Source: Methylobacterium tardum (lineage in GTDB: Bacteria > Pseudomonadota > Alphaproteobacteria > Rhizobiales > Beijerinckiaceae). Taken from it: a stretch of DNA of 64,000 bases. The notes under the pieces are model-generated. The model was not told where the DNA came from, searched no databases, and saw only the letters and a list, made by a program, of their open reading frames with translations. Below, piece by piece: positions 6,467-44,661 of this stretch; within the stretch, counting starts at the first letter, position 1; every line of letters starts with the position of its first letter. The translations under genes were made by a program, and so were the position numbers. The stretch is from contig NZ_CP097484.1 of assembly GCF_023546765.1 (NCBI RefSeq), positions 1,830,001 through 1,894,000 of the forward strand, read 5' to 3'.

Positions 6467-6507
6467 GGGACGGTCTTCATGGGACGGGCTTCATGGAACG
6501 GTCTTCA
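6461..6507. repeat. 14-bp tandem repeat covering the holB start codon
   Basis: The unit CTTCATGGGACGGT occurs at 6461-6474, 6475-6488 and 6489-6502 with one or two substitutions, followed by a partial copy at 6503-6507. On the coding strand each unit carries ATGAAG. Since 14 is not a multiple of 3, each start lies in a different frame, so loss or gain of units would not change the true start but would alter its upstream context. Confidence 0.85.
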
Positions 6508-6605
6508 GGGCGCTGCCTGCGGGTTCGTCGCTCCCGCCGGGGCCGCCGACACGGTTGCTGGCGGGAACGGGATCGGTCGGGCCGGGTATAGCCGCACACC
6601 GCAAC

Positions 6606-7328: not shown

Positions 7329-7338
7329 GCCCGCGCCG

Positions 7339-8571: not shown

Positions 8572-8720
8572 CGCCGTTCCGTCCCACGCCTGCCGTCGGG
8601 CCGGGAGAGCCTCGGCCGTTTCCGGATAACAAGCGTGACCATATTACGGTTTCGCGCCGGGATCGAATGCGAAATGCCGCATCGCGGTCAAGAGGCTGCG
8701 GGGGCGCCGCCGGGCCGTCC

Positions 8721-22126: not shown

Positions 22127-22920
22127 CGTCCCAGATAGACTTCGACCACCCGCGGGTCGGCCGAGACCGCGTCGATCGAGCCCTCGGCCAGCACCGCGCC
22201 CTCGTGCAGGCAGGTGACCCGGCAGCCGAGGTCGCGGACGAAGTGCATGTCGTGCTCGACCACCAGGACGGCGTGCTCGCCCGCGATGCGGCGGAGCAGG
22301 CGGGCGGTCTCAGCGGTCTCGGCGTCGGTCATGCCGGCCACCGGCTCGTCGACCAGCAGCAGCTTGGGATCCTGCGCGAGCAGCATGCCGATCTCCAGCC
22401 ACTGCTTCTGGCCGTGGCTGAGATCGGCGGCCGGGCGGCCCCGGTGGGCGAGCAAGCCGACGGTCTCCAGCAGGGAATCGATCCGCGTGGCCTCCACCCG
22501 GTTGCGCCACCCGAACAGGGACGCGAAGGCCGCGCGCGGACCTTTGAGGGCGAGCAGGATGTTGTCGGCCACCGTGTGGCTCTCGAACACGGTCGGCTTC
22601 TGGAACTTGCGGCCGATACCGAGGTCGGCGATCGCCGGCTCGTCGCTCCTGAGCAGGTCGTGGGTGCCGTCGAACAGGGCGATGCCGCCGTCCGGCCGGG
22701 TCTTGCCGGTGATGCAATCCATCATGGTGGTCTTGCCGGCGCCGTTCGGGCCGATGATCGCCCGCAGCTCGCCGCGGGCCAGCGTCAGCGACAGGCCGCG
22801 CAGGGCCTTGTAGCCGTCGAAGGTCACCCGCAGGTCGTCGAGGTAGAGGAGCGCGTCGGTCTCGCGCTTCCGGTTGGCGGGGCCGCGGGCATCCGGTCGT
22901 TCGAGGAGGTCGGCGCTCAC
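22123..22920 (-). CDS. urtD: urea ABC transporter ATP-binding subunit UrtD
   Basis: This is the LivG-like ATPase of the urea importer. The protein of 265 residues has the Walker A GPNGAGKTT at 57-65, LSHGQKQWLEIGMLL as signature and LLLVDEPVAGMTDAET as Walker B. LSHGQKQWLEI is characteristic of UrtD. The GTG start at 22920 overlaps the urtC stop (GTGA), and its own stop overlaps the urtE start, so expression of the three is coupled. Confidence 0.94.
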   Translation of the reverse strand: MSADLLERPDARGPANRKRETDALLYLDDLRVTFDGYKALRGLSLTLARGELRAIIGPNGAGKTTMMDCITGKTRPDGGIALFDGTHDLLRSDEPAIADLGIGRKFQKPTVFESHTVADNILLALKGPRAAFASLFGWRNRVEATRIDSLLETVGLLAHRGRPAADLSHGQKQWLEIGMLLAQDPKLLLVDEPVAGMTDAETAETARLLRRIAGEHAVLVVEHDMHFVRDLGCRVTCLHEGAVLAEGSIDAVSADPRVVEVYLGR

Positions 22921-24071
22921 GAGCCCTGCCCTTCTTCCGCGAGTTTCGGGGCGATGGCGGGCTCCGGCGGCAGCTTGGCCGCCGCGCGCCGGGAGCCGAA
23001 CCGCTCGATCGCGGTGCCGACGAGGCCGCGCGGCAGGAACAGCGTCACGACGACGAACAGGCCGCCGAGCGCGAACAGCCACGCGTCGGGCATCGCGCCG
23101 GTGAGCACGGTCTTGGCGTAATTGACCAGCACGGCACCGAGCGCCGCGCCGACCAGCGTGCCGCGCCCGCCTACCGCCACCCAGATCACCGTCTCGATGG
23201 AGTTGGTGGGGGCGAACTCCCCCGGGTTGATGATGCCGACCTGCGGCACGTAGAGGGCGCCAGCGACGCCGGCCATCATGGCCGAGACCGTGAAGGCCAG
23301 CGTCTTGAAGTGCTCCGGGCGGTAGCCGAGGAAGCGGGTGCGGCTCTCGGCATCGCGCACGGCGATCAGGATCTTTCCGTAGGCCGACACGGTCATGATC
23401 CGGGCGATCAGGTAGCCCAAAGCCAGCGCGAGGCCCGTCGCCACGAAGATGCCGACACGGAAATTCTGGGCCTGAACCGAGAGGCCCAGAAAATCCTTGA
23501 AGTCGGTCAGCCCGTTGTTGCCGCCGAGCCCCATGTCGTTGCGGAAGAAGGCGAGCATCAGCGCGTAGGTCAGCGCCTGGGTGATGATCGACAGGTAGAC
23601 GCCCGTGACCCGCGACCGGAAGGCGAGCCAGCCGAACACGAAGGCCAGCAGCCCCGGCACCAGCAGCACCATCAGGGCGGCGAAGGCGAAGTGGTCGAAG
23701 CCGTACCAGTACCAGGGCAACGCCTTGTAGTTCAGGAACACCATGAAGTCGGGCAGGACCGGGTTGCCGTAGACGCCCCGGGCGCCGATCTGGCGCATCA
23801 GGTACATGCCCATCGCGTAGCCGCCGAGCGCGAAGAACGCCCCGTGGCCGAGCGAGAGGATGCCGCAATAGCCCCAGACGAGGTCGAGGCTGACCGCGAG
23901 CAGCGCGTAGGCGAGGTACTTGCCGAACAGCGAGACCAGGTAGGTCGGCAGGTGCAGGCCGGAGCCCTCCGGCACCGCGAGGTTCAGGGCCGGCACGGCG
24001 AGGCAGAAGGCGGCCAGGACGGCGAGGAAGATCCAGCCCTTCCGGTCGATGAGGGGGGTGCGGGGGCTCAT
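22917..24071 (-). CDS. urtC: urea ABC transporter permease UrtC
   Basis: This is the LivM-like inner-membrane permease, 384 residues with about ten hydrophobic segments. WGYCGILSLGHGAFFALGGY and ITQALTYALMLAFFRNDMGL are typical of UrtC. The ATG at 24071 (MSPRTPLID) is preferred; the frame continues upstream only into a palindromic element. It is separated from urtB by that element. Confidence 0.93.
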   Translation of the reverse strand: MSPRTPLIDRKGWIFLAVLAAFCLAVPALNLAVPEGSGLHLPTYLVSLFGKYLAYALLAVSLDLVWGYCGILSLGHGAFFALGGYAMGMYLMRQIGARGVYGNPVLPDFMVFLNYKALPWYWYGFDHFAFAALMVLLVPGLLAFVFGWLAFRSRVTGVYLSIITQALTYALMLAFFRNDMGLGGNNGLTDFKDFLGLSVQAQNFRVGIFVATGLALALGYLIARIMTVSAYGKILIAVRDAESRTRFLGYRPEHFKTLAFTVSAMMAGVAGALYVPQVGIINPGEFAPTNSIETVIWVAVGGRGTLVGAALGAVLVNYAKTVLTGAMPDAWLFALGGLFVVVTLFLPRGLVGTAIERFGSRRAAAKLPPEPAIAPKLAEEGQGS

Positions 24072-24100
24072 AGCGCGGATCCCGAGGGCGCTGCGTGTAT

Positions 24101-24209
24101 CCCCTCCCCCTTGCGGGGAGGGGTAGGGTTGGGGGTGGTCCCGGATCGGGCGCGGCGGTGCCTCCTGCGCCACCCCCACCCTCGATCCCTCCCCACAAGG
24201 GGGAGGGAA
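24101..24209. repeat. long palindromic intergenic element, copy 1 (urtB-urtC)
   Basis: Outer arms (CCCTCCCCCTTGCGGGGAGG at about 24102 and its near-complement ending at 24209) enclose inner arms GGGGGTGG and CCACCCCC around a centre of about 30 bases that includes GCGGCGGTGCCTCCTG. The whole can fold into one long stem with side hairpins. A related copy lies in the urtA-urtB gap. Confidence 0.8.
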
Positions 24210-24222
24210 GGACGCGGCCCCC

Positions 24223-25794
24223 TCACGATTCCACCGCCCGGCCCTTGAGCGCGAACAGGCCGCGCGGGCGCTTCTGGATGAACAGGATGATGAAGATCAG
24301 GAGCCCGATCTTGGCCAGCACCGCGCCGATATACGGCTCGGCGAGCTTGTTCACGACGCCGAGCGTCAGTGCTGCCACCAGCGTCCCCCAGAGATTGCCG
24401 ACGCCGCCGAACACCACCACGAGGAACGAGTCGATGATGTAGCCCTGGCCGAGATTGGGCGAGACGTTGTCGATCTGCGAGAGCGCCACCCCGGCCATCC
24501 CCGCGATGCCGGAGCCGAGGCCGAAGGTCAGCGCGTCGACGTAGGGCGTGCGGATGCCCATCGCGGCGGCCATGCGGCGGTTCTGGGTGACCGCCCGGGT
24601 CTTCAGGCCGAACGACGTCTTTCGGAGCACGAACAGGAGGCCCAGGAACACCGCCAGCGCGAACACGATGATCCACATCCGGCCCCAGGTGATCGACAGG
24701 CCGTAGAGATCGAAGGCGCCGCTCATGAAGGCGGGGGCGCCGACCTCGCGGTTGGTCGGGCCGAAGATCGAGCGCACGCCCTGCTGCAGCGCGAGGCTGA
24801 CCCCGAAGGTGGCGAGCAGCGTCTCCAGGGGCCGCCCGTACAGGAAGCGGATGATGAACCGCTCGATCAGCACGCCGACGAGGCCGGCGACCAGGAACGC
24901 GCAGGGGATGCTGATCGCGAGCGACCAGCCGAACAGGGACGGCGCCTTGGTGCGGATCAGCTCCTGGACGAGATAGGTCGTGTAGGCGCCGAGCATCACC
25001 ATCTCGCCGTGCGCCATGTTGATCACGCCCATCACCCCGAAGGTGATGGCGAGCCCGATGGCCGCGAGCAGCAGGACCGAGCCCAGCGAGATGCCGTACC
25101 AGACGTTCTGGAGGGCCCCGAGGATCGCGAGCCGCGTCTCGATCGCCGCGATGCCGCGGGCAGCGGCTCCCCGCACCGCCTCGCTCGGATCCGCCGCAAG
25201 ACCGCGCAGGATGCCCATCGCGTCGCCATCGCCCCGGGCCTGGATGGCGGGAATTGCGGCAATCCGGTCGGGTTCCGCGGTGCCGGGCCTGCCGAGCAGC
25301 ACGGCGGCCCGCGCCTCGGTCAGCGCCTGCCGGACGCCCGGATGGGTCTCGCGGGCCAAAGCCGCGTCGAGGGCCGGCAGCGCCGCCGCATCCCGGGCCT
25401 TGAACACCGCGTCGGCGGCGGCGCGGCGCTTGGCCGGGTCGGGGCTCGCGAGGTCGAGCTGCCCGCGGGCGGCCTCGATCGCCCGGCGGACGCGGTTGTT
25501 GGCGCGCACCGGCTTGAGGTCGGGGCTGTCGGCGGCCGGGGCGCCGGACTTCGCATCCACGACGGCGCCGCCCTGCCGGATCAGCAGGGTCTTGCCCGGG
25601 CTCACCAGCAGGCGGCCGTCCGACAGGGCCGAAAGGATCGCGTCGGCGCGCGGGTCGCCAGAGGCGGCGAGGCCGGAGACGCCGGCCTCGATCTCGGCAT
25701 AGCCGTCACCGGCGAGCTGCGCGTAGGGATCCGGCGCCTGGGCGAGGGCCGGGGCGCAGAGCAGCAGGTAAAGGAGGGTGAGGAGACGGAGCAT
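24223..25794 (-). CDS. urtB: urea ABC transporter permease UrtB
   Basis: This is the LivH-like permease of the urea importer, 523 residues. It has a signal peptide (LRLLTLLYLLLCAPALAQA), a periplasmic region of about 200 residues, then a membrane domain with MGVINMAHGEMVMLGAYTTY and QIDNVSPNLGQGYIIDSF, both UrtB hallmarks. The long N-terminal extension is normal for UrtB. Palindromic elements flank it on both sides. Confidence 0.93.
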   Translation of the reverse strand: MLRLLTLLYLLLCAPALAQAPDPYAQLAGDGYAEIEAGVSGLAASGDPRADAILSALSDGRLLVSPGKTLLIRQGGAVVDAKSGAPAADSPDLKPVRANNRVRRAIEAARGQLDLASPDPAKRRAAADAVFKARDAAALPALDAALARETHPGVRQALTEARAAVLLGRPGTAEPDRIAAIPAIQARGDGDAMGILRGLAADPSEAVRGAAARGIAAIETRLAILGALQNVWYGISLGSVLLLAAIGLAITFGVMGVINMAHGEMVMLGAYTTYLVQELIRTKAPSLFGWSLAISIPCAFLVAGLVGVLIERFIIRFLYGRPLETLLATFGVSLALQQGVRSIFGPTNREVGAPAFMSGAFDLYGLSITWGRMWIIVFALAVFLGLLFVLRKTSFGLKTRAVTQNRRMAAAMGIRTPYVDALTFGLGSGIAGMAGVALSQIDNVSPNLGQGYIIDSFLVVVFGGVGNLWGTLVAALTLGVVNKLAEPYIGAVLAKIGLLIFIILFIQKRPRGLFALKGRAVES

Positions 25795-25815
25795 GGCACT
25801 TCTGGCGCGGCCGAA

Positions 25816-25958
25816 CTCTCCTCCCCGTTGCGGGGAGGAGCCGGAGGTGGGGGTGGTGCAGGATCAGCGGAGCGGTGCCTTCTGAACCACCCCCACCCCT
25901 ACCCCTCCCCGCAAGCGTGAGCGCATCCCGGGCAGGCCCGGGATCGCCTGGGGAGGGG
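25816..25958. repeat. long palindromic intergenic element, copy 2 (urtA-urtB)
   Basis: The same design as the urtB-urtC copy: CTCCTCCCCGTTGCGGGGAG outer arm, GGTGGGGGTGGT and ACCACCCCCACC inner arms, and a related centre (GGAGCGGTGCCTTCTG). The right outer arm is interrupted by about 34 bases (25915-25948) that contain their own palindrome, ATCCCGGG-CAGG-CCCGGGAT. Confidence 0.8.
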
Positions 25959-25970
25959 ACGAGCAGCGCC

Positions 25971-27266
25971 TCAGGCGCCGCCGCAGGACTTGGTCTTGGT
26001 GTTGTAGTTGCCGCACTTGAGCTTGACCCAGTCGGCCTCGAGGTCCTTCGAACCCTCGAGCTGCTTCGACCACGCCTCGCCGGGGATCAGGCCCTCGGTC
26101 TTCCACACCACGTCGAACTGGCCGTTCGACTCGATCTCGCCGATGAAGACCGGCTTGGTGATGTGGTGGTTCGGCAGCATCTTCGCGGTGCCGCCGGTGA
26201 GGTTCTTCTGCTCGATGCCCGGCAGCGCGTCGATCACCTTGTCGGGGTCCGTGGTGCCGGCCTTCTCCACCGCCTTCACCCACATGTTGAAGCCGATATA
26301 GTGGGCCTCCATCGGGTCGTTGGTGACGGCCTTCGGGTTCTTCCGGAACGCCTGCCACTTCTTGATGAAGTCCTCGTTCTCCGGCGTCTTGATCGACTCG
26401 AAGTAGTTCCAGGCGGCGAGGTGGCCGACCAGCGGCTTGGCGTCGATGCCGGCGAGCTCCTCCTCGCCCACCGAGAAGGCCACGACCGGGATGTCGGTCG
26501 CCTTGACGCCCTGGTTGCCGAGTTCCTTGTAGAACGGCACGTTGGCGTCGCCGTTGATGGTCGAGACCACGGCGGTCTTCTTGCCGGCCGAGCCGAACGC
26601 CTTGATCTTCGACACCTCCGTCTGCCAGTCCGAGAAGCCGAACGGCGTGTAGTTGATCAGGATGTCCTCATCCTTGACGCCCTTGGACTTGAGGTAGGCT
26701 TCGAGGATCTTGTTGGTCGTGCGCGGGTAGACGTAGTCGGTCCCCTCCAGCACCCAGCGCTTGGCGCCGCCGCCATCCTCCGACATCAGGTAATCCACCG
26801 CCGGGATCGCCTGCTGGTTCGGGGCGGCGCCGGTGTAGAACACGTTCCGCTCGCTCTCCTCGCCCTCGTACTGGACGGGGTAGAACAGGATGTTGTCGAG
26901 TTCCTTGAACACCGGCAGCACCGACTTGCGCGACACGCTGGTCCAGCAGCCGAACACGGCCGCGACCTTGTCCTTGCTGATCAGCTCGCGGGCCTTCTCG
27001 GCGAAGAGCGGCCAGTTCGAGGCCGGATCGACCACCACCGGCTCCAGCTTCTTGCCGAGCACGCCGCCCTTGGCGTTCTGCTCGGCGATGAGCATCAGCA
27101 TCGCGTCCTTGAGGGTGGTCTCGGAGATCGCCATCGTGCCCGAGAGCGAGTGCAGGATGCCGATCTTGATGGTCTCCTGCGCCCGGGCGGCGCCCGCCCC
27201 CAGCGTGCTCATCGCGAGCCCGGCGGCCAGCGCGGCGGCTGACGCCCAAGTTCCAAATGCTTTCAC
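25971..27266 (-). CDS. urtA: urea ABC transporter substrate-binding protein UrtA
   Basis: This is the periplasmic urea receptor, about 431 residues. A signal peptide (WASAAALAAGLAMSTLGAGA, cleaved near ARAQE) precedes IKIGILHSLSGTMAISE, the classic UrtA opening. YPVQYEGEESERNVFYTGA and EAHYIGFNMWVKAVEKAG also match. The start is GTG 27266; the frame continues upstream without a better start. It is the first gene of the urt operon, and the 305-bp AT-richer gap before it should hold the promoter, shared divergently with a Crp/Fnr regulator. Confidence 0.94.
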   Translation of the reverse strand: MKAFGTWASAAALAAGLAMSTLGAGAARAQETIKIGILHSLSGTMAISETTLKDAMLMLIAEQNAKGGVLGKKLEPVVVDPASNWPLFAEKARELISKDKVAAVFGCWTSVSRKSVLPVFKELDNILFYPVQYEGEESERNVFYTGAAPNQQAIPAVDYLMSEDGGGAKRWVLEGTDYVYPRTTNKILEAYLKSKGVKDEDILINYTPFGFSDWQTEVSKIKAFGSAGKKTAVVSTINGDANVPFYKELGNQGVKATDIPVVAFSVGEEELAGIDAKPLVGHLAAWNYFESIKTPENEDFIKKWQAFRKNPKAVTNDPMEAHYIGFNMWVKAVEKAGTTDPDKVIDALPGIEQKNLTGGTAKMLPNHHITKPVFIGEIESNGQFDVVWKTEGLIPGEAWSKQLEGSKDLEADWVKLKCGNYNTKTKSCGGA

Positions 27267-27571
27267 GGCGGTGCCCTTCGTCGTCTTCGTTGAGACGCTG
27301 CGGCCTCGCAATTCATGTGCCACATATTTAGGCAGTCGCCGCCGCGCGACCGTCTCGTGGGGCGGCAGCTGCCTGTCTCGGCGGCGCCGGAGGCACGAAT
27401 CCGGAGCCGCGGGCACCGCGGAACAGGTATCCGGTTGGATCGACTGGCGAAAACTAATCTACCCCATACTGGCCTTCGGTCTGGTGTGAGACAGTGGCGA
27501 TCATCCGCCGGATCGTCGGGCGCGGGTGACTGGGAGATCGCCCGTGCTCCTGCCCGGACCGGGAGCAGCCC
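27267..27571. promoter_or_regulatory. divergent promoter region of urtA and a Crp/Fnr gene
   Basis: A 305-bp gap between divergently transcribed genes. It includes a locally AT-rich segment near 27310-27335 on the urtA side and another near 27445-27475 on the regulator side. No operator could be assigned to a known regulator by eye. Confidence 0.45.
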
Positions 27572-28258
27572 ATGGCTCAGCCGCAGCAATCTGCCGTCCG
27601 CAACCGTCTGCTCGCCGCCCTGGCGCCGGAGGATTTCAGCCGTCTCGCCTCGCAGCTCGAGCCGGTCCCGCTGCCGCTGCACGCGGTGCTGATCGCGCCC
27701 CAGCAGCCGATTGCACAGGCCTACTTCGTCGAGGAGGGGATCGTTTCCCTGGTGGCCGACACATGCGAGGGCCGCATCGAGGTCGGCCTCACCGGACGGG
27801 AAGGCTTCATCGGCGTGCCGATCGCGCTCGGCGCGCAGACCACGCCCCAGACGGCGATCGTGCAGGCCAGCGGCGAGGCTTTGCGCATCGCGGCCGGCGC
27901 GCTGGAGGATGCCCTCGACGCAAGCGCCAGCCTGCGCCGGGTGCTCGGCCGCTACGTGCAGAGCCTGCTCGTGCAGGTAGGGCAGACCGTCTACGCCAAT
28001 GCCGACCTGACCGTCGAGGCGCGGCTCGCCCGGTGGATCCTCATGATCCACGACCGCCTGGAGCAGGACGAGCTGCCCCTGACCCACGAAGTGCTCTCGA
28101 AGATGCTCGGCGTGCGCCGGCCCACCGTGACGACCGCGACCCACCTGCTCGAAGGGGCCAGCATGATCCGGGCGCGGCGCGGACGCATCACGGTGGTCGA
28201 CCGCGAGAAGCTGGAGGATCTGGCGGGCGCCATCTACGGCCCCGCGGGGGCCGTCTAG
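27572..28258 (+). CDS. Crp/Fnr family transcriptional regulator
   Basis: This 228-residue protein has an N-terminal cyclic-nucleotide-binding-like barrel (YFVEEGIVSLVADTCEG, GREGFIGVPIALG) and a C-terminal winged helix (LSKMLGVRRPTVTTATHLLE, then GRITVVDREKLEDLA). It lacks the Fnr cysteine cluster, so direct Fe-S sensing is unlikely. It is divergent from urtA, which makes control of nitrogen-related transport plausible but unproven. Confidence 0.88.
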   Translation: MAQPQQSAVRNRLLAALAPEDFSRLASQLEPVPLPLHAVLIAPQQPIAQAYFVEEGIVSLVADTCEGRIEVGLTGREGFIGVPIALGAQTTPQTAIVQASGEALRIAAGALEDALDASASLRRVLGRYVQSLLVQVGQTVYANADLTVEARLARWILMIHDRLEQDELPLTHEVLSKMLGVRRPTVTTATHLLEGASMIRARRGRITVVDREKLEDLAGAIYGPAGAV

Positions 28259-28316
28259 CGCGCTTCGCCGAAGGAGACGCCGGTTCGGCGCAGGCGTGCC
28301 CGTTCACGCGCGTCTA

Positions 28317-28334
28317 GGGACGCGGACGCGTCCC
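28317..28334. terminator. hairpin between convergent Crp/Fnr and kinase genes
   Basis: GGGACGC (28317-28323) and GCGTCCC (28328-28334) pair around a 4-base loop, midway between two convergent stop codons. Confidence 0.45.
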
Positions 28335-28348
28335 CGTGCGGGCCTGCC

Positions 28349-29083
28349 TCACCGGGCCTCACCCTCCCAGGCCGTCTCGGGATCCTCCGCCACGCTGTGC
28401 CCGACGCGGTCGGTGAGCGGCAGGCGGATCGTGCAGCGCAGCCCGTCCGGCGCGTAGCGCAGACTCGTCTGCGCGCCGAGATCGTAGGCCAGCATGTCCT
28501 CCAGCACGTCCGTGCCGAAGCCCCGCCGGGCCGGTGCTTGCACCCCGCTGCCGCCGGTCTCGGCCCAGTCCAGGGTCAGGACCGGCGGCCCCGGCTCCGC
28601 GTCGGCGACCCGCCACGCGGCGGTGACCCGGCCCTGCGGGAGCGCCAGGGTCCCGTGCTCCACCGCATTGCTCGTCAGCTCGTGCAGCGCCAGCGCCAGG
28701 ACCAGGGCGGCCTTCGGCCGGAGCCGCACCCGCGGCCCGGTGAGCGCGGCCTGCTCGCCCTCGCGCACGAGGTGGAACATCAGCTCGTCGGAGATCAGGG
28801 TGTGCAGGTCGGCATCGCCGAACGCGTCCGTGGCGGCCTGCACGCGCATGACGGCCCCGAACCGGCCGTCGAGATGCGCGACATAAGTTTCGACATCCGC
28901 GGATTGCTCGGCCGAGCGGTGGATGACCGTCCGCATCATCGCCATCGTGTTGCGCATCCCGTGGCGCAGGCTGTCGGGCACGCCGGCCTCGTCGAGCAGC
29001 CGGCGCAAGCGGGCATTGTCGGCCTCCAGAGCGGCGAGGCGCTCCGCCATGTCGCGGGCGGCCAAGTCGCGGGGGTCTGTCAT
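28349..29083 (-). CDS. HWE/HisKA_2-type sensor histidine kinase, soluble
   Basis: This 244-residue protein has a short N-terminal coiled coil, a dimerisation helix with the likely phospho-acceptor His41 (SLRHGMRNTMAMMRTVIHR), and a compact ATPase domain (LALALHELTSNAVEHGTL as N-box, RRGFGTDVLEDML as G-box region). There is no input domain or membrane segment, so it must receive its signal from another protein. It lies between two Crp/Fnr genes. No receiver-domain protein is adjacent. Confidence 0.83.
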   Translation of the reverse strand: MTDPRDLAARDMAERLAALEADNARLRRLLDEAGVPDSLRHGMRNTMAMMRTVIHRSAEQSADVETYVAHLDGRFGAVMRVQAATDAFGDADLHTLISDELMFHLVREGEQAALTGPRVRLRPKAALVLALALHELTSNAVEHGTLALPQGRVTAAWRVADAEPGPPVLTLDWAETGGSGVQAPARRGFGTDVLEDMLAYDLGAQTSLRYAPDGLRCTIRLPLTDRVGHSVAEDPETAWEGEAR

Positions 29084-29140
29084 GCAGGGCCTCTCCGGAT
29101 GTCGTCCAACTGGGCTCAATCGCCGCGATGCGGGCGCGGT

Positions 29141-29881
29141 TCACGCCTGGCGTGCGACGGGGCGGTCGTTCTCCGCCGTCAGGTGAAGGTAGGCGGCGTC
29201 GAAATGCGCGAGCCGGGCCAGGGCCGAAGGATTGTGGATGGTCAGGCGGCGGCTGCGCAGGGTGATCAGCCCCATGCCGCGCAGCTCCTGCAGCGTCCGG
29301 TTGATGTGGACGCTGGTCTGCCCCATCGCGTCGCCGAGGTCGTTCTGCGTGATCGGCATCGGGCAGGTATGTCCGTCCGCGAGGCCGATGGCGGACAGCC
29401 GGGCGTGCAGCTCGCAGAACAGGTGGGCGAGGCGCTCAATGCCGGTGCGGCTGCCGAGGCTGACCGTCCACTCGCGCTGGATCGCCGCGGTGGCCAGCGC
29501 CTCGCGGTGGAAGGCGAGGTCCAGTTGCGGGCTGCGCGCCACGGCCGCCTGGAGCGCGGGCCCGGAGATCTGGCCGAGGAGCACGGGTGTGATCGCCCCG
29601 ATCGTGTGGTCCATCTCGTCGAGGAGGAAGATGTGCGGGTCGCACAGATCGCCCGGCAGGAGCAGCGAGACGATCTGGCGGCGCCCGTTGGCGAATTGCC
29701 GGTAGCGACAGGCCCAGCCGTCGAGAATGACGTTGACGGCGCGCGGGTCGTCGCCCTCGTGGATGATGTCGGTGCGCGCGGCGACCATGCGCTCCGGGCC
29801 GATCGATCCGGCCAAGCACAGCCGGTCCGCCTCCGGGAGATGGACGTAGCGTTCCAGTTTGCGCACGAGCGGATTTGACAC
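29141..29881 (-). CDS. Crp/Fnr family transcriptional regulator
   Basis: This second Crp/Fnr-type protein has 246 residues: a nucleotide-binding-like barrel (IIHEGDDPRAVNVILDGWAC, RRQIVSLLLPGDLCDPHIF) and a winged helix with ITQNDLGDAMGQTSVHINRT, close to the FixK/Crp recognition helix. The GTG at 29881 has GGAGAA about 7 bases upstream and is preferred. It is probably co-transcribed with the kinase, which starts 57 bp further on. Confidence 0.87.
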   Translation of the reverse strand: MSNPLVRKLERYVHLPEADRLCLAGSIGPERMVAARTDIIHEGDDPRAVNVILDGWACRYRQFANGRRQIVSLLLPGDLCDPHIFLLDEMDHTIGAITPVLLGQISGPALQAAVARSPQLDLAFHREALATAAIQREWTVSLGSRTGIERLAHLFCELHARLSAIGLADGHTCPMPITQNDLGDAMGQTSVHINRTLQELRGMGLITLRSRRLTIHNPSALARLAHFDAAYLHLTAENDRPVARQA

Positions 29882-30334
29882 GACTGGTTCTCCGCATTGG
29901 CGTGGGAACAGGAGCCTACATTCAGATCCGGCCAATGAATACTTATACAGATTAGATTATGGTGTCGAAAGGGCTGTTGCAGGACGCAGGCTGATCGATC
30001 CTCCGCCGGCGCGCTCTGCGGTCGGTCCAAGCCGGTCGGTCCAAGCCGGCCGGTCCAAGCCGACGGGCTGTCGGGCTATGACGCTGCCCCGCGGCCGGGC
30101 AAGGCGAAAATGATCCCGCGTGCCGGGCTGGCCGCGGGAGAATGTTCGCGCAGTCTGCCGAAATAAGAACGGCTATGCTTTTGACTTGACGGAAGTCACG
30201 CATCAAAGATTGGCGTGTAAAGACGCCGGCCTGTCAAGCAACGATCGGCCGGCGTCTGGCGTATCGTCTTCTCTCAACAGGCGCCGCCGGGTTCTACCGA
30301 CGCGGTCGCCGCGTCCTGGACGGATTTCGAGATC
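29882..30334. other. intergenic region before livG, with a tandem repeat
   Basis: About 450 bp, partly AT-rich at 29925-29965 and 30165-30215, likely holding divergent promoters for the Crp/Fnr gene and the Liv-type operon. A three-unit 14-bp tandem repeat is inside it. No gene is seen. Confidence 0.5.
30020..30061. repeat. 14-bp tandem repeat, three units
   Basis: GGTCGGTCCAAGCC at 30020-30033 and 30034-30047, then GGCCGGTCCAAGCC at 30048-30061. It is intergenic, with no coding role evident. Confidence 0.85.
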
Positions 30335-31252
30335 ATGCAGCCTGCGCTGCGCCGCGTCCGATCGGGACGGGACAGGAAGGCCGTGCCCCGGCCCGACCAC
30401 CGACTGGCTGCCCGCGCGGGCGGCCAGCCGGCGCCGCGCGGTGCGGCGGACCAGGACCGCCTGAAGCCGGTTCTGTCGGTCGAGGGCCTGTCCCTCGCCT
30501 TCGGCGGGACGGTGGCCTTCGCGGAGATTGATCTCGCGGTCGGCGCGGGGGAGATCCACGCGGTGATCGGGCCGAACGGCGCCGGGAAATCCTCGCTGAT
30601 CAACGCGATCACCGGCCTCTACGCGCCGGGGGCCGGGTGCGTGCGGATCGGAGAGGCCGCCTTCGCCCGGGTCCCGGCGGGGCGGCTCGCCGCGCTCGGC
30701 GTCGCCCGGACCTTCCAGAACCTCGCCCTGTTCGCGGGCCTGAGCGTTCGCGACAACGTCCTGTCGGGGCTCGCCGCGGCGCGGCGGGCCGGGCTCTGGC
30801 CTCAGATCCTGGGCCTGCCGGCGGCCCGGCGTGAGGCGCGGGCGCACCGCGACGCCGCCGAGACGGTGATCGGCCGCCTCGGCCTCGCCGCCGTGGCAGA
30901 CCGACCGGCGGGCAGCCTGCCCTACGGGCTCCAGAAGCGGGTCGAACTCGGCCGGGCCCTGGTGGCTCGGCCGGGTCTCCTGCTCCTCGACGAGCCGATG
31001 GCCGGCATGACGGCCACCGAGAAGGCCGAGATGTCCGGCTTCATCCGGGCGGCGCGGGAGGATTCCGGCGCCGCGATCGTGCTGATCGAGCACGATATCG
31101 GCGTCGTGATGCGCCTCTCCGACCGGGTGACCGTGCTCGACCACGGCCGCCGCATCGCCACCGGCACGCCGGCGGAGGTGCAGGCCGACCCGGCCGTCAT
31201 CGCCGCCTATCTGGGGCTCGCGGATGCCGATGCGGACGCGATGGCCGCATGA
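30335..31252 (+). CDS. LivG-type ABC transporter ATP-binding protein
   Basis: This is an ATPase of a branched-chain amino acid/amide-type importer. Walker A GPNGAGKSS is at residues 79-87, ARTFQNLALFAGLSVRDNVL is typical of LivG, and LLLLDEPMAGMTATEK is Walker B. The first about 45 residues are Arg-rich and unlike the family, so the true start may be the GTG at 30383 or later. It begins a five-gene plus-strand operon; its stop overlaps the next start (ATGA). Confidence 0.88.
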   Translation: MQPALRRVRSGRDRKAVPRPDHRLAARAGGQPAPRGAADQDRLKPVLSVEGLSLAFGGTVAFAEIDLAVGAGEIHAVIGPNGAGKSSLINAITGLYAPGAGCVRIGEAAFARVPAGRLAALGVARTFQNLALFAGLSVRDNVLSGLAAARRAGLWPQILGLPAARREARAHRDAAETVIGRLGLAAVADRPAGSLPYGLQKRVELGRALVARPGLLLLDEPMAGMTATEKAEMSGFIRAAREDSGAAIVLIEHDIGVVMRLSDRVTVLDHGRRIATGTPAEVQADPAVIAAYLGLADADADAMAA

Positions 31253-32142
31253 GCCCGGATCTCGCCTTCCTGGTCGAGGTCGTGGTCGGCGGCCTGCTCT
31301 CGGGCGTCATGTACGCCCTCGTGGCGATCGGCTTCGTGCTGATCTACAAGACCTCGGGCGTGCTGAACTTCGCGCAGGGCGCGATGGTGCTGTTCGCCGC
31401 CCTCACCTTCGTGAGCCTGACCGAGCGCGGCCTGCCCTTCCCGGCGGCACTGGCCGCGACGCTCGCCGTGATGGTGGTGGTCGGGCTCGGCGTGGAGCGC
31501 ACGGTGCTGCGGCCGCTGGTCAACCAGCCGCCGATCACCCTGTTCATGGCGACGCTGGGGGTCGCCTACGTGATCGAGGGCGCGGCCCAGCTCGCCTGGG
31601 GCACCCAGGTCCACGGGCTCGACCTCGGCATCGACGACACGCCGCTCGATCTCGGCGGCGTGCTGGTCAGCCGGTTCGACCTGTTCGCCGCCGCGACCGC
31701 CGGCCTGATGATGGCGCTCCTCTCCGCCTTCTTCCGCTACACCCGCACGGGCCTCGCCTTCCGGGCGGTGGCGGACGATCCGCTGGCCGCCCTCAACACC
31801 GGCCTGCGCCTGCCCCGGATCTGGTCGGCGGTCTGGATCGCCGCCGGGATCGTCGCGCTGGTGGCGGGCCTGCTCTGGGGCGCGCGGCTCGGCGTGCAGT
31901 TCTCCCTGTCGCTGGTGGTGCTGAAGGCGCTGCCGGTCCTGGTTCTCGGCGGCTTCGACTCGATCGCCGGGGCGATCGTGGCCGGGCTGATCGTCGGCGC
32001 GGTGGAGAAGCTGTCGGAGGTCTATCTCGGGCCGGTCATCGGCGGCGGGATCGAGGGCTGGATCGCCTACGTGGCGGCGCTCGGATTCCTGCTGGTGCGG
32101 CCCTCGGGCCTGTTCGGTCTGCGCGCCGTCGAGCGGGTCTGA
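31249..32142 (+). CDS. LivH-type ABC transporter permease
   Basis: This 297-residue inner-membrane permease has about eight hydrophobic segments. GVMYALVAIGFVLIYKTSGV and LNFAQGAMVLFAALTF are classic LivH sequences. It follows livG with an ATGA overlap and precedes the LivM-type permease by 6 bp, so all are one operon. Confidence 0.9.
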   Translation: MSPDLAFLVEVVVGGLLSGVMYALVAIGFVLIYKTSGVLNFAQGAMVLFAALTFVSLTERGLPFPAALAATLAVMVVVGLGVERTVLRPLVNQPPITLFMATLGVAYVIEGAAQLAWGTQVHGLDLGIDDTPLDLGGVLVSRFDLFAAATAGLMMALLSAFFRYTRTGLAFRAVADDPLAALNTGLRLPRIWSAVWIAAGIVALVAGLLWGARLGVQFSLSLVVLKALPVLVLGGFDSIAGAIVAGLIVGAVEKLSEVYLGPVIGGGIEGWIAYVAALGFLLVRPSGLFGLRAVERV

Positions 32143-32148
32143 GCCGCC

Positions 32149-33384
32149 ATGATCGCCCTCCCCCGCGCCGTGCCGCGCCCCCGCCTGTCCGCCGGCGCCC
32201 TCGGCCTCGCCGCCCTGCTGGTCGTGGCCTACGGGATCGTGCCGCGCGTCGGCACGAGCTACCTGTTCGAGGCGCTGCTGACGCCGTTCCTCGCGCTGGC
32301 GCTGGCCGGCCTCGGGCTCAACCTGCTCACCGGCTATGCCGGGCTGCTCTCGCTGGGCTCGGCCGCCTTCATGGCGGTGGGGGCCTACGCGGCCTTCAAC
32401 CTGTCGCTGCGCCTGCCCGGCCTGCCCCTGCCGGCGGCGATCCTGCTCGCCGGCCTCGTCTCCGCCCTCGCCGGGCTGGCGGCGGGCCTGCCGGCGCTGC
32501 GGCTGCGCGGCTTCTACCTCGCGGTCTCGACGCTCGCCGTGCAGTTCTTCGTCGCCTGGGCGCTGAACCGGATCGGCTGGATCTCCAACGACAGCCCCTC
32601 GGGCATCATCACGGCGCCCCGGCTGGTGGTGGCCGGCCTGTCCTTCGACGATCCGCGCGGGCGCTACCTGTTCTCGCTGAGCGCGGTCACGCTGCTGACT
32701 GTCCTCGCGTGGCGCCTCGTGATCGCGCCCACGGGCCGCAACCTCGTGGCGATCCGCGACAACGAGACCGCCGCGCGCCTCGTCGGCGTGAAGGTCGCCC
32801 GGACCAAGCTCCTGGCCTTCGCGGTCTCGTCCTTCGTGATCGGGATCGCCGGGGTGCTGTGGGCCTTCGCGTATCTGCGCACCGTCGAGCCGGCGGGGTT
32901 CAACCTCGACCGCTCCTTCCAGATCCTGTTCATCGTCATCATCGGCGGCCTGGGCACCCTGCGCGGCGCCTTCCTGGGCGCGGGCTTCATCGTGGTGCTG
33001 CCCCTGCTGCTCGCCCGCCTGGGCGCGGCGCTCCTCGGCGACGGCTTCGATTCCGGCACCCTGGAGATGGTCCAGCGCATCGTGCTCGGCGCCCTGATCG
33101 TCGCCGTGCTGATCCGCGAGCCCGCGGGGCTCGCGGCCCTGCTCGACCGGGCCGTGGCCGCCGTCAGGCGATCCGATCGCCTCCGCCGCCGCACCACCCG
33201 GACCCCGTTCGCCGACGGCCAATCGGCTTGCCCCGCGCAACGCCCCGTCATCCCGGGGCCGCGCAGCGGAGCCCGGGATCCAGAGCCGCCGACAGGCCAG
33301 GTCACGGCACCGCCAGTGGTTCTGGATTGCCCGCCTCCGGCTTGCCCCTCCGGGTCCGGGCTCGCCTGCGGCGCCCCGGACTGA
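32149..33384 (+). CDS. LivM-type ABC transporter permease with a repeat-derived tail
   Basis: This permease has about ten hydrophobic segments (LNLLTGYAGLLSLGSAAFMA, IRDNETAARLVGVKVARTKL and IIGGLGTLRGAFLGAGFIV are LivM-like). The family normally ends near residue 345. Here the frame goes on for about 65 residues through an intergenic palindromic element (33243-33389). The tail is Pro/Arg/Gly/Cys-rich, so it is probably not functional. It could reflect insertion of the element into the original stop region. Confidence 0.86.
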   Translation: MIALPRAVPRPRLSAGALGLAALLVVAYGIVPRVGTSYLFEALLTPFLALALAGLGLNLLTGYAGLLSLGSAAFMAVGAYAAFNLSLRLPGLPLPAAILLAGLVSALAGLAAGLPALRLRGFYLAVSTLAVQFFVAWALNRIGWISNDSPSGIITAPRLVVAGLSFDDPRGRYLFSLSAVTLLTVLAWRLVIAPTGRNLVAIRDNETAARLVGVKVARTKLLAFAVSSFVIGIAGVLWAFAYLRTVEPAGFNLDRSFQILFIVIIGGLGTLRGAFLGAGFIVVLPLLLARLGAALLGDGFDSGTLEMVQRIVLGALIVAVLIREPAGLAALLDRAVAAVRRSDRLRRRTTRTPFADGQSACPAQRPVIPGPRSGARDPEPPTGQVTAPPVVLDCPPPACPSGSGLACGAPD

Positions 33385-38275: not shown

Positions 38276-39121
38276 ATGACCGCCCTGGCTTCGACCCAGC
38301 CGCCCCTGCGCGCCACGAGCCGCAGCACCGCGGAATCCGAGGTCTGGGCGGCCCTGCGCGCCGAGGCCGAGGCGGCCCTGATCGAGGAGCCGCTCTATGC
38401 CGGGGTCATCCAGGCGACGATCCTCGACCAGCGCTCGCTGGCCCAGGCCCTCGCCTACCGCCTCGCCCACCGGCTCGGGGACGGCGACCTGGCCCGGCTG
38501 TCGATGCGCGACCTGTGCCTGTCAGCCTTCGAGGCGGACCCGCAGGCCGGCGCCCACGCGGTGCGCGACCTCGTGGCGATCCGCGAGCGCGACCCGACCT
38601 GCCGCCGCTACCTCGACCCGTTCCTGTTCTACAAAGGTCTGGCGGCGCTGGAGGCCTACCGGGTCGGCCACTGGCTCTGGCACCAGGGCCGGGCGACCCT
38701 GGCGCTGCACGTCCAGAGCCGGATCTCCGAGGTGTTCGGCTGCGACATCCACCCGGCGGCCCGGATCGGCTCCGGCGTGTTCATCGACCACGCCACCGGG
38801 GTGGTGATCGGCGAGACCACGGTGATCGCCGACGACGTCTCGATCCTCCAGTCGGTGACGCTCGGCGGCAACGGCAAGGAGAGCGGCGACCGGCATCCCA
38901 AGATCGAGCGCGGGGTGCTGCTCAGCGTCGGCGCCAAGGTGCTGGGCAACATCCGGGTGGGGGCGGGCGCCAAGGTCGCGGCCGCCGCGGTGGTGCTGCA
39001 GGACGTGCCGCCCCACACGACCGTGGCGGGCGTGCCGGCCCGGGTCGTCTCGCGCCTGCCCGTGGACGAGGAGCCGGCACTCAGCATGGACCAGTCCTTC
39101 GGCTACGGGGACGGGATCTGA
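38276..39121 (+). CDS. cysE: serine O-acetyltransferase
   Basis: This cytoplasmic enzyme acetylates L-serine with acetyl-CoA to O-acetylserine, the direct precursor of cysteine. In its 281 residues the N-terminal helical SATase domain (LAQALAYRLAHRLGDGDLA) is followed by the left-handed beta-helix of hexapeptide repeats: DIHPAARIGSGVFIDHATGV, VVIGETTVIADDVSILQSV, GGNGKESGDRHPKI and GAGAKVAAAAVVL. The catalytic His lies in the DHATG segment. It precedes the encapsulin gene by 435 bp. Family 2 encapsulins with desulfurase cargo are often found beside cysE, which would supply the cysteine route. Confidence 0.95.
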   Translation: MTALASTQPPLRATSRSTAESEVWAALRAEAEAALIEEPLYAGVIQATILDQRSLAQALAYRLAHRLGDGDLARLSMRDLCLSAFEADPQAGAHAVRDLVAIRERDPTCRRYLDPFLFYKGLAALEAYRVGHWLWHQGRATLALHVQSRISEVFGCDIHPAARIGSGVFIDHATGVVIGETTVIADDVSILQSVTLGGNGKESGDRHPKIERGVLLSVGAKVLGNIRVGAGAKVAAAAVVLQDVPPHTTVAGVPARVVSRLPVDEEPALSMDQSFGYGDGI

Positions 39122-39556
39122 GGCACGCCGAGAAATTCTTCTCTTAAAACAAAGTCGTCCGGCCACCGCCGCGTACGCCGATCCGACGAAATTAAATTCT
39201 CGGAACTCGCGTCCGGGCGAATGTGATGTCCTATGCGTTGTGCATGCCAGAGGATTGCCTTCCAGGTAGGGGGTGAAAATAGGGAAATCATTTCGTTGAC
39301 CCTCGGCCGAATCAGACTTTATCCAGGCCCTGCCGGACACGGGATGCATCGAGGCCGGCTGAGCGGCGGACAAGTGCGATCCAGCCGCCGGGAAAGACCT
39401 GATTCATCTGTCGGCGATGCGGATTCGACAGGCCGTTCTCGTCATCAAGTCTTGATCGCGACGTTTTACGACCGCCCTGCACAGGCTGCGGGGCGAAAAG
39501 CCGCCGCGCGGATCGATGCGGCGCGCCTGCAACCCTGACTGGAGTGAGGACGAACG
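39122..39556. promoter_or_regulatory. upstream region of the encapsulin operon
   Basis: A 435-bp gap with one of the lowest GC stretches of the window at about 39130-39320 (for example GAAATTAAATTCTC). It most likely carries the encapsulin promoter. No operator or riboswitch-like fold was recognised. The shell gene's own ribosome-binding site is GGAGTGAGG just before ATG 39557. Confidence 0.45.
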
Positions 39557-40946
39557 ATGAGCGGACCGGGTCTGAGCGTGAGCGCCACGGCGGCACGCAA
39601 TCTTGCGACGGCGACCGTCACCTCGGTCCAGAACGCGGCCAACACGCCGCGCTGGCTCCTGCGGCTCCTGCCCTTCGTGGACGTGGCGGGCGGGGTCTAC
39701 CGCGTCAACCGCCGCGCCGTCGTGCTGGCCAAGCCCGGCCGGATCGATCTCGCCGCCGAGGACAAGGGCGATGGCAAGGGCCGGGTGATCCGTCCCGCCT
39801 CGCTGCGTGCCGTGCCGCTGTTCAGCCGGCTCGGCGATTCCGAGCTCGCCGCACTGGCGGCCAAGTTCACCGAGAGCCGGCACCAGGCCGGCGCGGTGAT
39901 CCACGAGGAGGGGTCCGCGGGCCGCAGCCTCACGGTCGTGGCCGACGGCACGGTCGAGCTGACCCTGTCGGGCCCCTACAAGGGCCGCCTGCGCCAGGGC
40001 CTGGCCACGAAGGGCGACTATTTCGGCGATGCCGGTCTCGCCGGTGAGCGTGCGCCCGCCCCGGCCGTGAAGGCCCTGTCGGCCGTGACCCTCCTGACCC
40101 TCGACGCCGCCGCGGTGGAGAGCGAGGAGATCCGCGCCAAGATCGCGCAGTACCGCGAGGAGCGCGACCGCCTCAAAGGGCACACCAATTCCTACGGCGA
40201 ACAGGGCATCGAGCTGCTGGCGGTCCATGCCGGCGAGCCGCGCCTGCCCACGACCTTCGCCGACTACGAGGTCGATCCGCGCGAGTACCACCTCTCGACC
40301 ATCCAGACGATCCTCAACACCCACACGCGGGTCACCGATCTCTACTCCAACGAGATCGACCAGCTCCGCGAGCAGATCCGCCTCACGGTCGACGCCGTGA
40401 AGGAGCGCGAGGAGTGGGAGCTCCTGAACAATTCGCAGTTCGGCCTGCTGGGCGAGGTCGGCCCGCGCCAGCGCATCCCCACCCGCGGCGGTCCGCCCAC
40501 CCCGGACGATCTCGACGAGCTGCTGACGCTGGTCTGGAAGAAGCCCGCCTTCTTCGTGGCCCATCCCCGCGCCATCGCGGCCTTCGGCCGGGAGGCGACC
40601 CGCCGCGGCGTGCCGCCGGTGGTGGTCCACCTGTTCGGCGCGCCGTTCATCACCTGGCGCGGCGTGCCGCTGGTGCCGAGCGACAAGCTGCCGATCGACA
40701 TCGACCCGGTGACCGGCGCCGAGACCACCTCGATCCTGCTGCTGCGGGTCGGCGAGGGCGAGCAGGGCGTGGTCGGCCTGCAGAAATCCGGCGTGACCGG
40801 CGAGATCGAGCCCGGCCTGTCGGTGCGCTACATGGGCACCAACGACCACTCGATCGCCTCGCACCTCGTGACCCGCTACTTCTCGGCCGCCGTGCTGGTC
40901 GAGGACGCGATCGCCCGCCTCGATAACGTGCTGCTGGGCAATTACC

Positions 40947-40960
<14 letters not shown>
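39557..40960 (+). CDS. family 2 encapsulin shell protein with an internal cNMP-binding-like domain (2B type)
   Basis: This 467-residue subunit should self-assemble into an icosahedral protein shell with the HK97 phage-capsid fold. The N-arm (residues 1-60, with NTPRWLLRLLPFVDVAGGVY) and the capsid core (from about 230: FADYEVDPREYHLSTIQTIL, FGLLGEVGPRQRIPTRGGPP, REATRRGVPPVVVHLFGAPF, VTRYFSAAVLVEDAIARLDN) match SrpI-like family 2 shells. Residues about 82-195 are an insertion resembling a cyclic-nucleotide-binding domain: SLRAVPLFSRLGDSELAALA, VIHEEGSAGRSLTVVADGTV and GDYFGDAGLAGERAPAPAV. That insertion defines the 2B type. The cargo gene overlaps its end by 14 bp, so they are coupled. Nucleotide binding is inferred only. 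Confidence 0.93.
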
Positions 40961-42959
<1,999 letters not shown>

Positions 42960-42981
42960 GCCGGCGCCCTGTTCCGGGATT

Positions 42982-43066
42982 CCCAAGGGCAGGCCCTTGG
43001 GCGGGGTATCGGGGCGGAGCCCTGATGCTGTGTCTCGGCAGGGCTCCGTCCTGCACCCGCAGCAGA
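42982..43066 (+). terminator. stacked hairpins after the cargo gene
   Basis: CCCAAGGG-CAGG-CCCTTGGG at about 42982-43001 and GGAGCCCTG paired with CAGGGCTCC at about 43016-43048 can form two successive hairpins just after the desulfurase stop. They probably end or protect the encapsulin transcript. The first resembles a GC-rich intergenic repeat rather than a classic T-tailed terminator. Confidence 0.5.
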
Positions 43067-43121
43067 TCCCGGACCAGCGCTTTCAAGGTGTTTGGGCGGG
43101 GATCGGCTGCTCCGACGACAA

Positions 43122-43165
43122 CCCCGTCATCCCGGTCTCGCCTGCGGCGCCCCGGGATGACGGGG
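43122..43165. repeat. short palindromic repeat related to the one at 33243
   Basis: Perfect 14-bp arms, CCCCGTCATCCCGG (43122-43135) and CCGGGATGACGGGG (43152-43165), enclose CTCGCCTGCGGCGCC. The same CTCGCCTGCGGCGCC string occurs in the right arm of the element at 33243-33389, so they belong to one family. Confidence 0.75.
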
Positions 43166-43217
43166 TGGAAGCCGAACACTCTGAGGGCTGGTCCCGGACC
43201 TTTTGAGGCCGGGCTCT

Positions 43218-44441
43218 TCACCCCGCCGCCGGCCGGAGATGCCGCGTCCGGACCGTGCCGTCGATGGCCCGCAGCGCGCGGTGCACCGCCTCCGCCTCGT
43301 CCGGCCGCACCGAGGCATCGACCACGACGTAGCCGAACTCGCCGTCCGTCTGCAGGTACTGCGCGTCGATGTTGAGCGCGCGGCCCGAGAAGATCGCGTT
43401 GATCTGCCCGAGCACGCCGGGCACGTTCCGGTGCACGTGCAGGAAGCGCGCGCCGGACAGGCGCGGCGGCAGCTGCACCTGCGGGAAGTTCACCGCGCCC
43501 AGCGTCGAGCCGGTCTGGACGTAGTCGACCAGCTTGCGGGCCACCTCCGCGCCGATGCGGTCCTGGGCTTCCTCCGTCGAGCCGCCGACATGCGGGGTGA
43601 GGATGACGTTCGGGAGGCCCTGCAGGGGCGACACGAAGCGCTCCGCATTGGAGGTGGGCTCCACCGGGAAGACGTCGATCGCGGCCCCGGCGAGATGCCC
43701 GTCGCGCAGGGCCGAGGCCAGCGCGTCCAGGTCCACGACGGTGCCGCGGCTGTTGTTGATCAGGTAGGCCCCGGGCTTCATCGCGCGGATCCGGTCCGCG
43801 CTCATGAGCCCGTGGGTCAGCGGCGTCTCCGGGACGTGCAGGCTGACGACGTCGCTCGCGGCGAGCAGAGCCTCGAAGCTCTCGGCGGGCTCGGTGTTCC
43901 CGTGGCGCAGCTTGTCGGTGAGGTCGTAGAAGATCACGCGCATGCCCATCGCCTCGGCGAGGTTCGAGAGCTGCGCGCCGATATTCCCGTAGCCGACGAT
44001 CCCGAGGGTCTTGCCGCGCACCTCGAAGGCGCCGGTGGCCGACTTGTCCCAGCCGCCGGCATGGGCGGATTCCGAGCGTGGCAGGATGCGCCGAAGCAGC
44101 ATCACGATCTCGCCGATCGTGAGTTCGGCGACGCTGCGCGTGTTCGAGAACGGCGCGTTGAAGACCGGCAGGCCGCGGGCGCGCGCCGTCTCGAGGTCGA
44201 CCTGGTTGGTCCCGACGCTGAAGCAACCGACGGCGGTCAGATCGGGCAGCGCGTCGAGCAGCGCGGCGGTGACTTTCGTGCGCGAGCGGATGCCGAGGAC
44301 CGTGGCGCCGGCAAGATCACCGGAATCCCCGGGGCCGACGGCCCGAGGCAATTGCCGGATGTCGCCGATCCCGGCCTGCGTGAAGACCTTGGACGCTGTC
44401 GGCGCTATGCTTTCGGTCAGAACGACGCGCTCGGTCAACAC
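43218..44441 (-). CDS. serA: D-3-phosphoglycerate dehydrogenase (ACT-domain type)
   Basis: This NAD-dependent cytoplasmic enzyme oxidises 3-phosphoglycerate in the first step of serine synthesis. In 407 residues it shows FNAPFSNTRSVAELTIGEIV (substrate-binding region), GIVGYGNIGAQ (NAD loop), INNSRGTVVDLDALASAL with the catalytic Arg region, ILTPHVGGSTEEAQ with the catalytic His, and a C-terminal ACT domain (FLHVHRNVPGVLGQINAIF) that usually senses serine. The GTG at 44441 follows AAGGAGGACAG, a strong ribosome-binding site. It converges on the encapsulin operon; serine feeds CysE, so a metabolic link is plausible. Confidence 0.94.
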   Translation of the reverse strand: MLTERVVLTESIAPTASKVFTQAGIGDIRQLPRAVGPGDSGDLAGATVLGIRSRTKVTAALLDALPDLTAVGCFSVGTNQVDLETARARGLPVFNAPFSNTRSVAELTIGEIVMLLRRILPRSESAHAGGWDKSATGAFEVRGKTLGIVGYGNIGAQLSNLAEAMGMRVIFYDLTDKLRHGNTEPAESFEALLAASDVVSLHVPETPLTHGLMSADRIRAMKPGAYLINNSRGTVVDLDALASALRDGHLAGAAIDVFPVEPTSNAERFVSPLQGLPNVILTPHVGGSTEEAQDRIGAEVARKLVDYVQTGSTLGAVNFPQVQLPPRLSGARFLHVHRNVPGVLGQINAIFSGRALNIDAQYLQTDGEFGYVVVDASVRPDEAEAVHRALRAIDGTVRTRHLRPAAG

Positions 44442-44661
44442 GGTCTGTCCTCCTTCGACGGACGGAATCTGACCTATGACCTTGCCGCTGGCGCAGCGCA
44501 GCGGCAAGGGCGCGCGGCGCATGCGCGCCCCACCGGGCCGGAACGCCCGCCGCGGGCTACGGGCCCGGGCTGACCGAGACCGCCCTGCCCCTCGACGTCG
44601 GCCGCGCCACCTGCCAGGGTCCGCCTCCCGGCCGCGGAGGCCGCGGAGCGACAGGTGCGTC

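Follow-up and report, generated by a model that had tools for sequence, protein, structure and literature searches.

The DNA window analysed here (64,000 nucleotides, G000:C1:1830001-1894000 of a 6.94-Mb genome) encodes a family 2B encapsulin shell protein of viral descent, the gene for which overlaps that of a SufS-type cysteine desulfurase and follows a second copy of cysE. Our main reading, to which we assign a probability of roughly 0.85, is that of a single-shell family 2B encapsulin that packages the desulfurase and is served by a dedicated second CysE, with the adjacent serA as a chance neighbour. Systems of this kind are already in print; the one here has a cysE linked to its shell and does not include serA. 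The evidence obtained here consists of the genes themselves, a fold match, leader motifs, synteny, co-occurrence and trees. By shell sequence, the closest named relatives in a search of named contigs are Methylobacterium, at up to 97% identity.

A shell gene overlapping its probable cargo gene

Three co-oriented genes lie on the forward strand: cysE (38276..39121; serine O-acetyltransferase, TIGR01172 and PF06426, tail ...GYGDGI), the shell gene 435 bp further on (39557..40960, 467 residues) and the desulfurase gene (40947..42959, 670 residues), with serA (43218..44465, reverse strand; NF008759, 573 bits) convergent to all three. The end of the shell gene and the start of the cargo gene overlap by 14 nt (40947..40960), the same length being found in 67 of the rows measured. 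This arrangement, including the long leader of the desulfurase, confirms what the first-pass annotation had described. Elsewhere in the window, positions 22917-33384 hold two runs of branched-chain amino acid or urea type ABC transporter genes, one on the reverse strand (binding protein 25971-27416, permeases 22917-24179 and 24223-25794) and one on the forward strand (ATPase 30335-31252, permeases 31249-32142 and 32149-33384), with a Crp-type regulator between them (27572-28258). Positions 5414-9986 carry a housekeeping run with a DNA polymerase III delta-type subunit, a thymidylate kinase, a D-Ala-D-Ala carboxypeptidase and a lytic transglycosylase-like protein.

By fold match and by family models over their cut-offs, the shell protein is an HK97-fold, SrpI-type family 2 encapsulin; it scores 565.2 bits against the 2B model NF041163 (cut-off 400). 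The HK97 capsid domain spans residues 213-466 (40193..40954; PF19307 at 206-461). Between the N-arm and the HK97 part lies a PF00027 match (residues 109-188) within an E-loop insert, residues 70-205 (39764..40171), that matches cyclic-nucleotide-binding domains (CBDs), the best being that of cGMP kinase. The whole genome yields one PF19307 match, and because it thus has a single shell gene, a two-component 2B system is ruled out.

The cargo reaches 810.6 bits against the family 2 encapsulin cargo model NF041166 (cut-off 800) and 543.1 bits against the SufS model TIGR01979, and it also matches PF00266. It carries the SGHK Lys492 and the RSGHHC Cys630, which by position correspond to the PLP lysine of SufS and its active-site cysteine. 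Residues 1-268 (40947..41750) form an Ala/Pro/Gly-rich leader, judged disordered by composition, and its alignment and motifs make it the probable shell-targeting region. Using degenerate patterns, we found in it close variants of both motifs described for the SrpI cargo leader, LARLANEFFS and AASPYYFLDG (PMC8049743): VGRLAREIV at residues 31-39 (41037..41063) and YYFL at residues 226-229 (41622..41633). In counts that are descriptive, the motif-1 pattern having been widened after a first look, the pair occurs in 15/17 leaders of the window's clade, for which shuffling predicts 0.29 leaders with motif 1 and 0.09 with motif 2, and elsewhere in 8/24 classic 2A, 2/4 other 2B, 2/4 insert-less Verrucomicrobiota and 0/3 actinobacterial leaders. 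The motif 2 stretch alone is described as insufficient for cargo loading (PMC8049743). The actinobacterial loci L149, L150 and L151, from Kitasatospora and Streptomyces plasmids, have 2B shells followed by desulfurases with short leaders that lack the pair. The leaders of L149 and L150 contain RYWL, perhaps a degenerate second motif, and the length of the latter is overstated because its frame begins inside the shell gene.

The first-pass annotation had regarded the pairing of a 2B shell with a desulfurase as unexpected, an expectation that follows the earlier picture in which 2b shells were tied to terpenoid genes (Nichols 2021, PMC8049743). The pairing is well represented in print: Andreas & Giessen 2021 (PMC8346489) list 1281 2A and 199 2B desulfurase operons, the latter spread over 9 phyla, and the five cargo types given for two-component 2B operons include desulfurases (PMC12407261). 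The 2B desulfurase operons of PMC8346489 combine a CBD-bearing shell with a desulfurase as the window does, and we see no difference in kind. The SrpI/CyD system of Synechococcus elongatus (2A, PDB 6x8m; Nichols 2021, PMC8049743) likewise places an HK97 shell beside a SufS-type desulfurase with a disordered leader and related motifs, and has a serine acetyltransferase gene upstream. Unlike the window shell, however, SrpI has no CBD (the HK97 domains are 59% identical) and falls in the classic 2A clade of the shell tree, and at its locus the acetyltransferase is named EpsC and has cysK and a rhodanese gene beside it. The 2B shells of Streptomyces griseus (9bhu) and S. lydicus (two-component; 9bje, 9bix) share the HK97 domain with an E-loop CBD, but the S. 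lydicus system is a putative xylulose-kinase two-component system (PMC12407261), whereas the window genome has one shell gene and a desulfurase cargo.

Two neighbours, cysE and serA

A shell over the cut-off is present in 49 of 59 Methylobacterium genomes, and cysE was compared in 43 of the 59, comprising 36 shell-bearing and seven shell-less genomes. The window's cysE has a counterpart with 86% identity or more in 36/36 of the former and 0/7 of the latter, related genomes that are not independent counts; the best match in the shell-less genomes is only 51-55% identical. All 36 shell-bearing genomes also carry a second cysE, 51-57% identical (at C1:4749960 in the window genome). The shell-linked cysE therefore comes and goes with the shell, and the proposed link between cysE and the shell-desulfurase system is borne out by this co-occurrence. 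In Xanthobacter and Aquabacter, cysE lies 41-66 bp upstream of the shell gene, and serine O-acetyltransferases are among the genes enriched in desulfurase operons (PMC8346489).

Within the 435-bp gap, a possible sigma70-type promoter of the shell-cargo pair lies at 39296..39325 on the forward strand (TTGACC at 39296-39301 and TATCCA at 39320-39325, spacing 18), a call made on consensus resemblance only. TTGAC (39296-39300) and TA (39320-39321) are conserved at 90% or more in a 67-row alignment of Methylobacteriaceae intergenic sequences, which suggests that the pair serves as a promoter for shell and cargo. Given the length of the gap and this candidate promoter, cysE need not be co-transcribed with the shell gene.

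The first-pass annotation had also cast serA as the source of serine, such that serA, cysE, shell and desulfurase would form one serine-to-sulfur module. We consider such a module highly improbable. Its genes do adjoin in the window, as they do in five relatives (G010, G002, G038, G017 and G026), so that serA borders the shell in 6/36 shell-bearing Methylobacterium genomes, but in the remaining 30 it is elsewhere or no close copy is listed, its orientation is convergent, and the window genome has another, higher-scoring serA at C1:330568. Among the 80 named-contig loci, some of them incomplete, serA adjoins the shell in three. On this poor linkage and the second genomic copy we reject serA as a partner, and we judge the paralogue in the window to be a chance neighbour outside the system.

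The insert and the cargo across family 2 shells

A survey of family 2 shells with and without the insert, as the first-pass annotation had proposed, was worthwhile: in our sample the insert is no marker of the cargo, and shells without it do not form a single lineage. Of 325 loci confirmed on named contigs, 80 were kept. By genome set, a shell passed the cut-off in 4/385 genomes of the class and 17/398 of the phylum (both counts including the window's own genome), 20/339 Cyanobacteriota and 12/337 Verrucomicrobiota, the last label denoting genomes drawn from the phylum of G833 (genome of L073). Shells were found in 32/72,556 plasmid records, from which alone actinobacteria were sampled. Only part of the sampled shells entered the trees. 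The 47-row shell tree omits L062 (short frame); the 70-row tree omits L062, L133 (very long branch, odd composition) and the near-copies L002, L066 and L145, and L161-L165 and L221 were not added to it. The cargo trees omit L062, L075 and L140 (truncated or split frames), and the 58-row version additionally L133, hk_L189, L002, L066 and L145. The label "no desulfurase" means no match in the fetched locus DNA. At five such loci Pfam detected a terpene synthase (L152, L153, L154) or a polyprenyl synthetase (L205, L207) beside the shell; at L208 the ORF picked was a photosystem protein, and L206, L209 and L166-L168 lay outside the scan.

Some sampled loci are unusual in their own right. At L133 (G115, a class relative; 0.6-Mb assembly, 88% complete), a desulfurase accompanies a very divergent shell that bears a CBD and shares 34% identity with the window's; its tree placement is unsure. 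The Streptomyces plasmid NZ_CP081497.1 (L151) has five shell genes, one of them with a desulfurase in the fetched DNA. L067, on a contig titled Bacteroidetes, has a shell and cargo almost like those of the Methylacidiphilales contigs L068 and L070; either the metagenome bin is mislabelled or the genes were transferred recently.

In the first shell tree (47 rows) the insert-less shells form one clade (100/100), which dissolved only once Verrucomicrobiota were added. The 70-shell tree, for which the insert columns were left out, places the classic insert-less shells in one group of 25 and the 16 shells without desulfurase in one clade (100/100), the sampled 2B shells of this sort being separate from the window's clade. 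Four insert-less Verrucomicrobiota shells (L216-L219), 71-75% identical to the window's over the HK97 part, fall inside the window's clade (22 rows, 100/100). On this tree the insert requires two state changes and the desulfurase label one. One clade of all insert-less shells is rejected by the AU test (p 7.8e-5; repeat 8.2e-4), both runs using the published 2A/2B split, named before the tree. At the insert junction, YRVNRV (3/4) or YRINRV (1/4) leads into a short loop in L216-L219, whose N-arms are similar to that of the window shell. All four exceed the thresholds of the 2A as well as the 2B NCBIfam model, with the higher score on 2A; SrpI (L156) likewise passes both. In one Verrucomicrobiota order the shell is present in 16/269 genomes, none of the 16 has a frame long enough for the insert, and all 16 shells join the window's clade in a quick tree. 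With G1505 this makes 17 insert-less genomes, represented by 21 rows since L232, L234 and L236 repeat L216, L217 and L218, and since L239 and L240 both derive from a single insert-less shell gene of G1543, split by a frame shift through assembly error or decay.

In a tree of 58 desulfurases rooted on six SufS not beside a shell, the 52 encapsulin-linked enzymes form one clade (100/98), and the desulfurases of the four insert-less Verrucomicrobiota loci fall within the window's cargo clade (100/99). Grouping the desulfurases of all insert-less shells into a single clade is rejected (p 0.0036). The CBD tree (41 rows) repeats the HK97 grouping (window clade 97/97); in it the actinobacterial desulfurase shells sit next to those without a desulfurase, and the remaining 2B shells with a desulfurase adjoin the window clade. 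CBD swapping between shells is not supported, since the two trees agree. The agreement indicates that insert and shell travelled together, and loss of the insert in Verrucomicrobiota is the simplest account. These trees thus suggest that a Verrucomicrobiota lineage lost the insert with its desulfurase cargo unchanged, a direction that we infer. The alternative, that the window's clade and other 2B shells each acquired the insert on their own, or that it was lost and regained, strikes us as unlikely. It draws on the cargo tree, where L219 and then L216-L218, all insert-less, branch off at the base of the window's clade and three changes of the insert are required, which leaves room for loss and regain; but the CBD tree follows the HK97 tree in putting the window's clade next to the other desulfurase 2B shells, the insertion point after YRVNR is the same, and the shell tree needs just two changes. 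The portion of PMC8346489 available to us does not mention insert loss, and we do not claim the loss as unreported.

Taken further, we lean towards a history in which the 2A/2B split by insert is not a natural one. The shells sampled from family 2 would have begun with a desulfurase as cargo. Those that combine desulfurase and CBD would then have had two kinds of descendant: terpenoid shells, after a single change of cargo, and in Verrucomicrobiota a further shell without the insert, arising by convergence and still with its desulfurase. On this view the CBD would be a removable accessory, and the window-clade and Verrucomicrobiota shells a natural test pair for its role.

Proposed function of the compartment

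The cyclic-nucleotide binding cassette has a Glu and a phosphate-binding Arg, and neither was found at its expected place in the window CBD when aligned with cGMP kinase: Asp158 replaces the cassette Glu and Pro167 the RTA arginine. Among 53 relatives, 38 have D or E at position 158, and the six commonest residues at position 167 do not include Arg. The mean majority-residue fraction in the 53 sequences is 0.86 for the HK97 domain versus 0.57 for residues 81-190. These changes and the low conservation fit with the statement of an earlier study, as relayed by PMC12407261, that the 2B CBD binds no cyclic nucleotide; in a solved 2B shell the CBD sits outside, over the two-fold pores (PMC12407261). 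On the residues and the published statement, cyclic-nucleotide control of the shell is unlikely. The window CBD probably no longer binds cyclic nucleotides and may gate or sense something else. It also seems dispensable, since shells of this kind in one Verrucomicrobiota lineage have apparently shed it while retaining the desulfurase.

Assembly, loading and chemistry we infer, like the role of the CBD, and packaging from homology only; the desulfurase is most likely the enzyme that the shell packages. Shell and cargo would be made from the overlapping genes, and the leader, via its conserved motifs, would draw the desulfurase into the HK97-fold shell, where cysteine would be converted to alanine and sulfane sulfur. 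Until its release by thiols, the sulfur could stay in the shell in persulfide or elemental form, and the O-acetylserine made by the dedicated second CysE would increase the supply of cysteine whenever the system is active. Storage at this locus is suggested by analogy: a relative, which we take to be a 2A system, reportedly stores elemental sulfur, to go by the title of Benisch et al. 2024. A possible but less favoured reading is that the shell is a delivery or regulation chamber that raises desulfurase activity and passes persulfide to a specific acceptor such as a rhodanese, keeping no elemental sulfur inside, contrary to what that title reports for the relative. In favour of such a chamber, CyD of S. 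elongatus was more active when encapsulated (PMC8049743), and rhodaneses are enriched accessory genes of desulfurase operons (PMC8346489), although none was detected among the 27 window ORFs scanned with Pfam, an absence that counts against either reading. The lack of a growth phenotype in S. elongatus knockouts (PMC8049743) weighs against the main reading. The locus may be "one compartmentalised sulfur system", as first proposed; the 2B shell, the desulfurase cargo and the cysE link hold, whereas serine supply by serA and the view of the pairing as unexpected do not.

The shell-linked cysE strengthens the case for a tie of these compartments to cysteine supply. Naming shells 2A or 2B, or guessing their cargo, by the insert alone can misplace them. 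The role of the insert can be cleanly compared in related desulfurase shells that have it or lack it, their shell domains being 71-75% identical.
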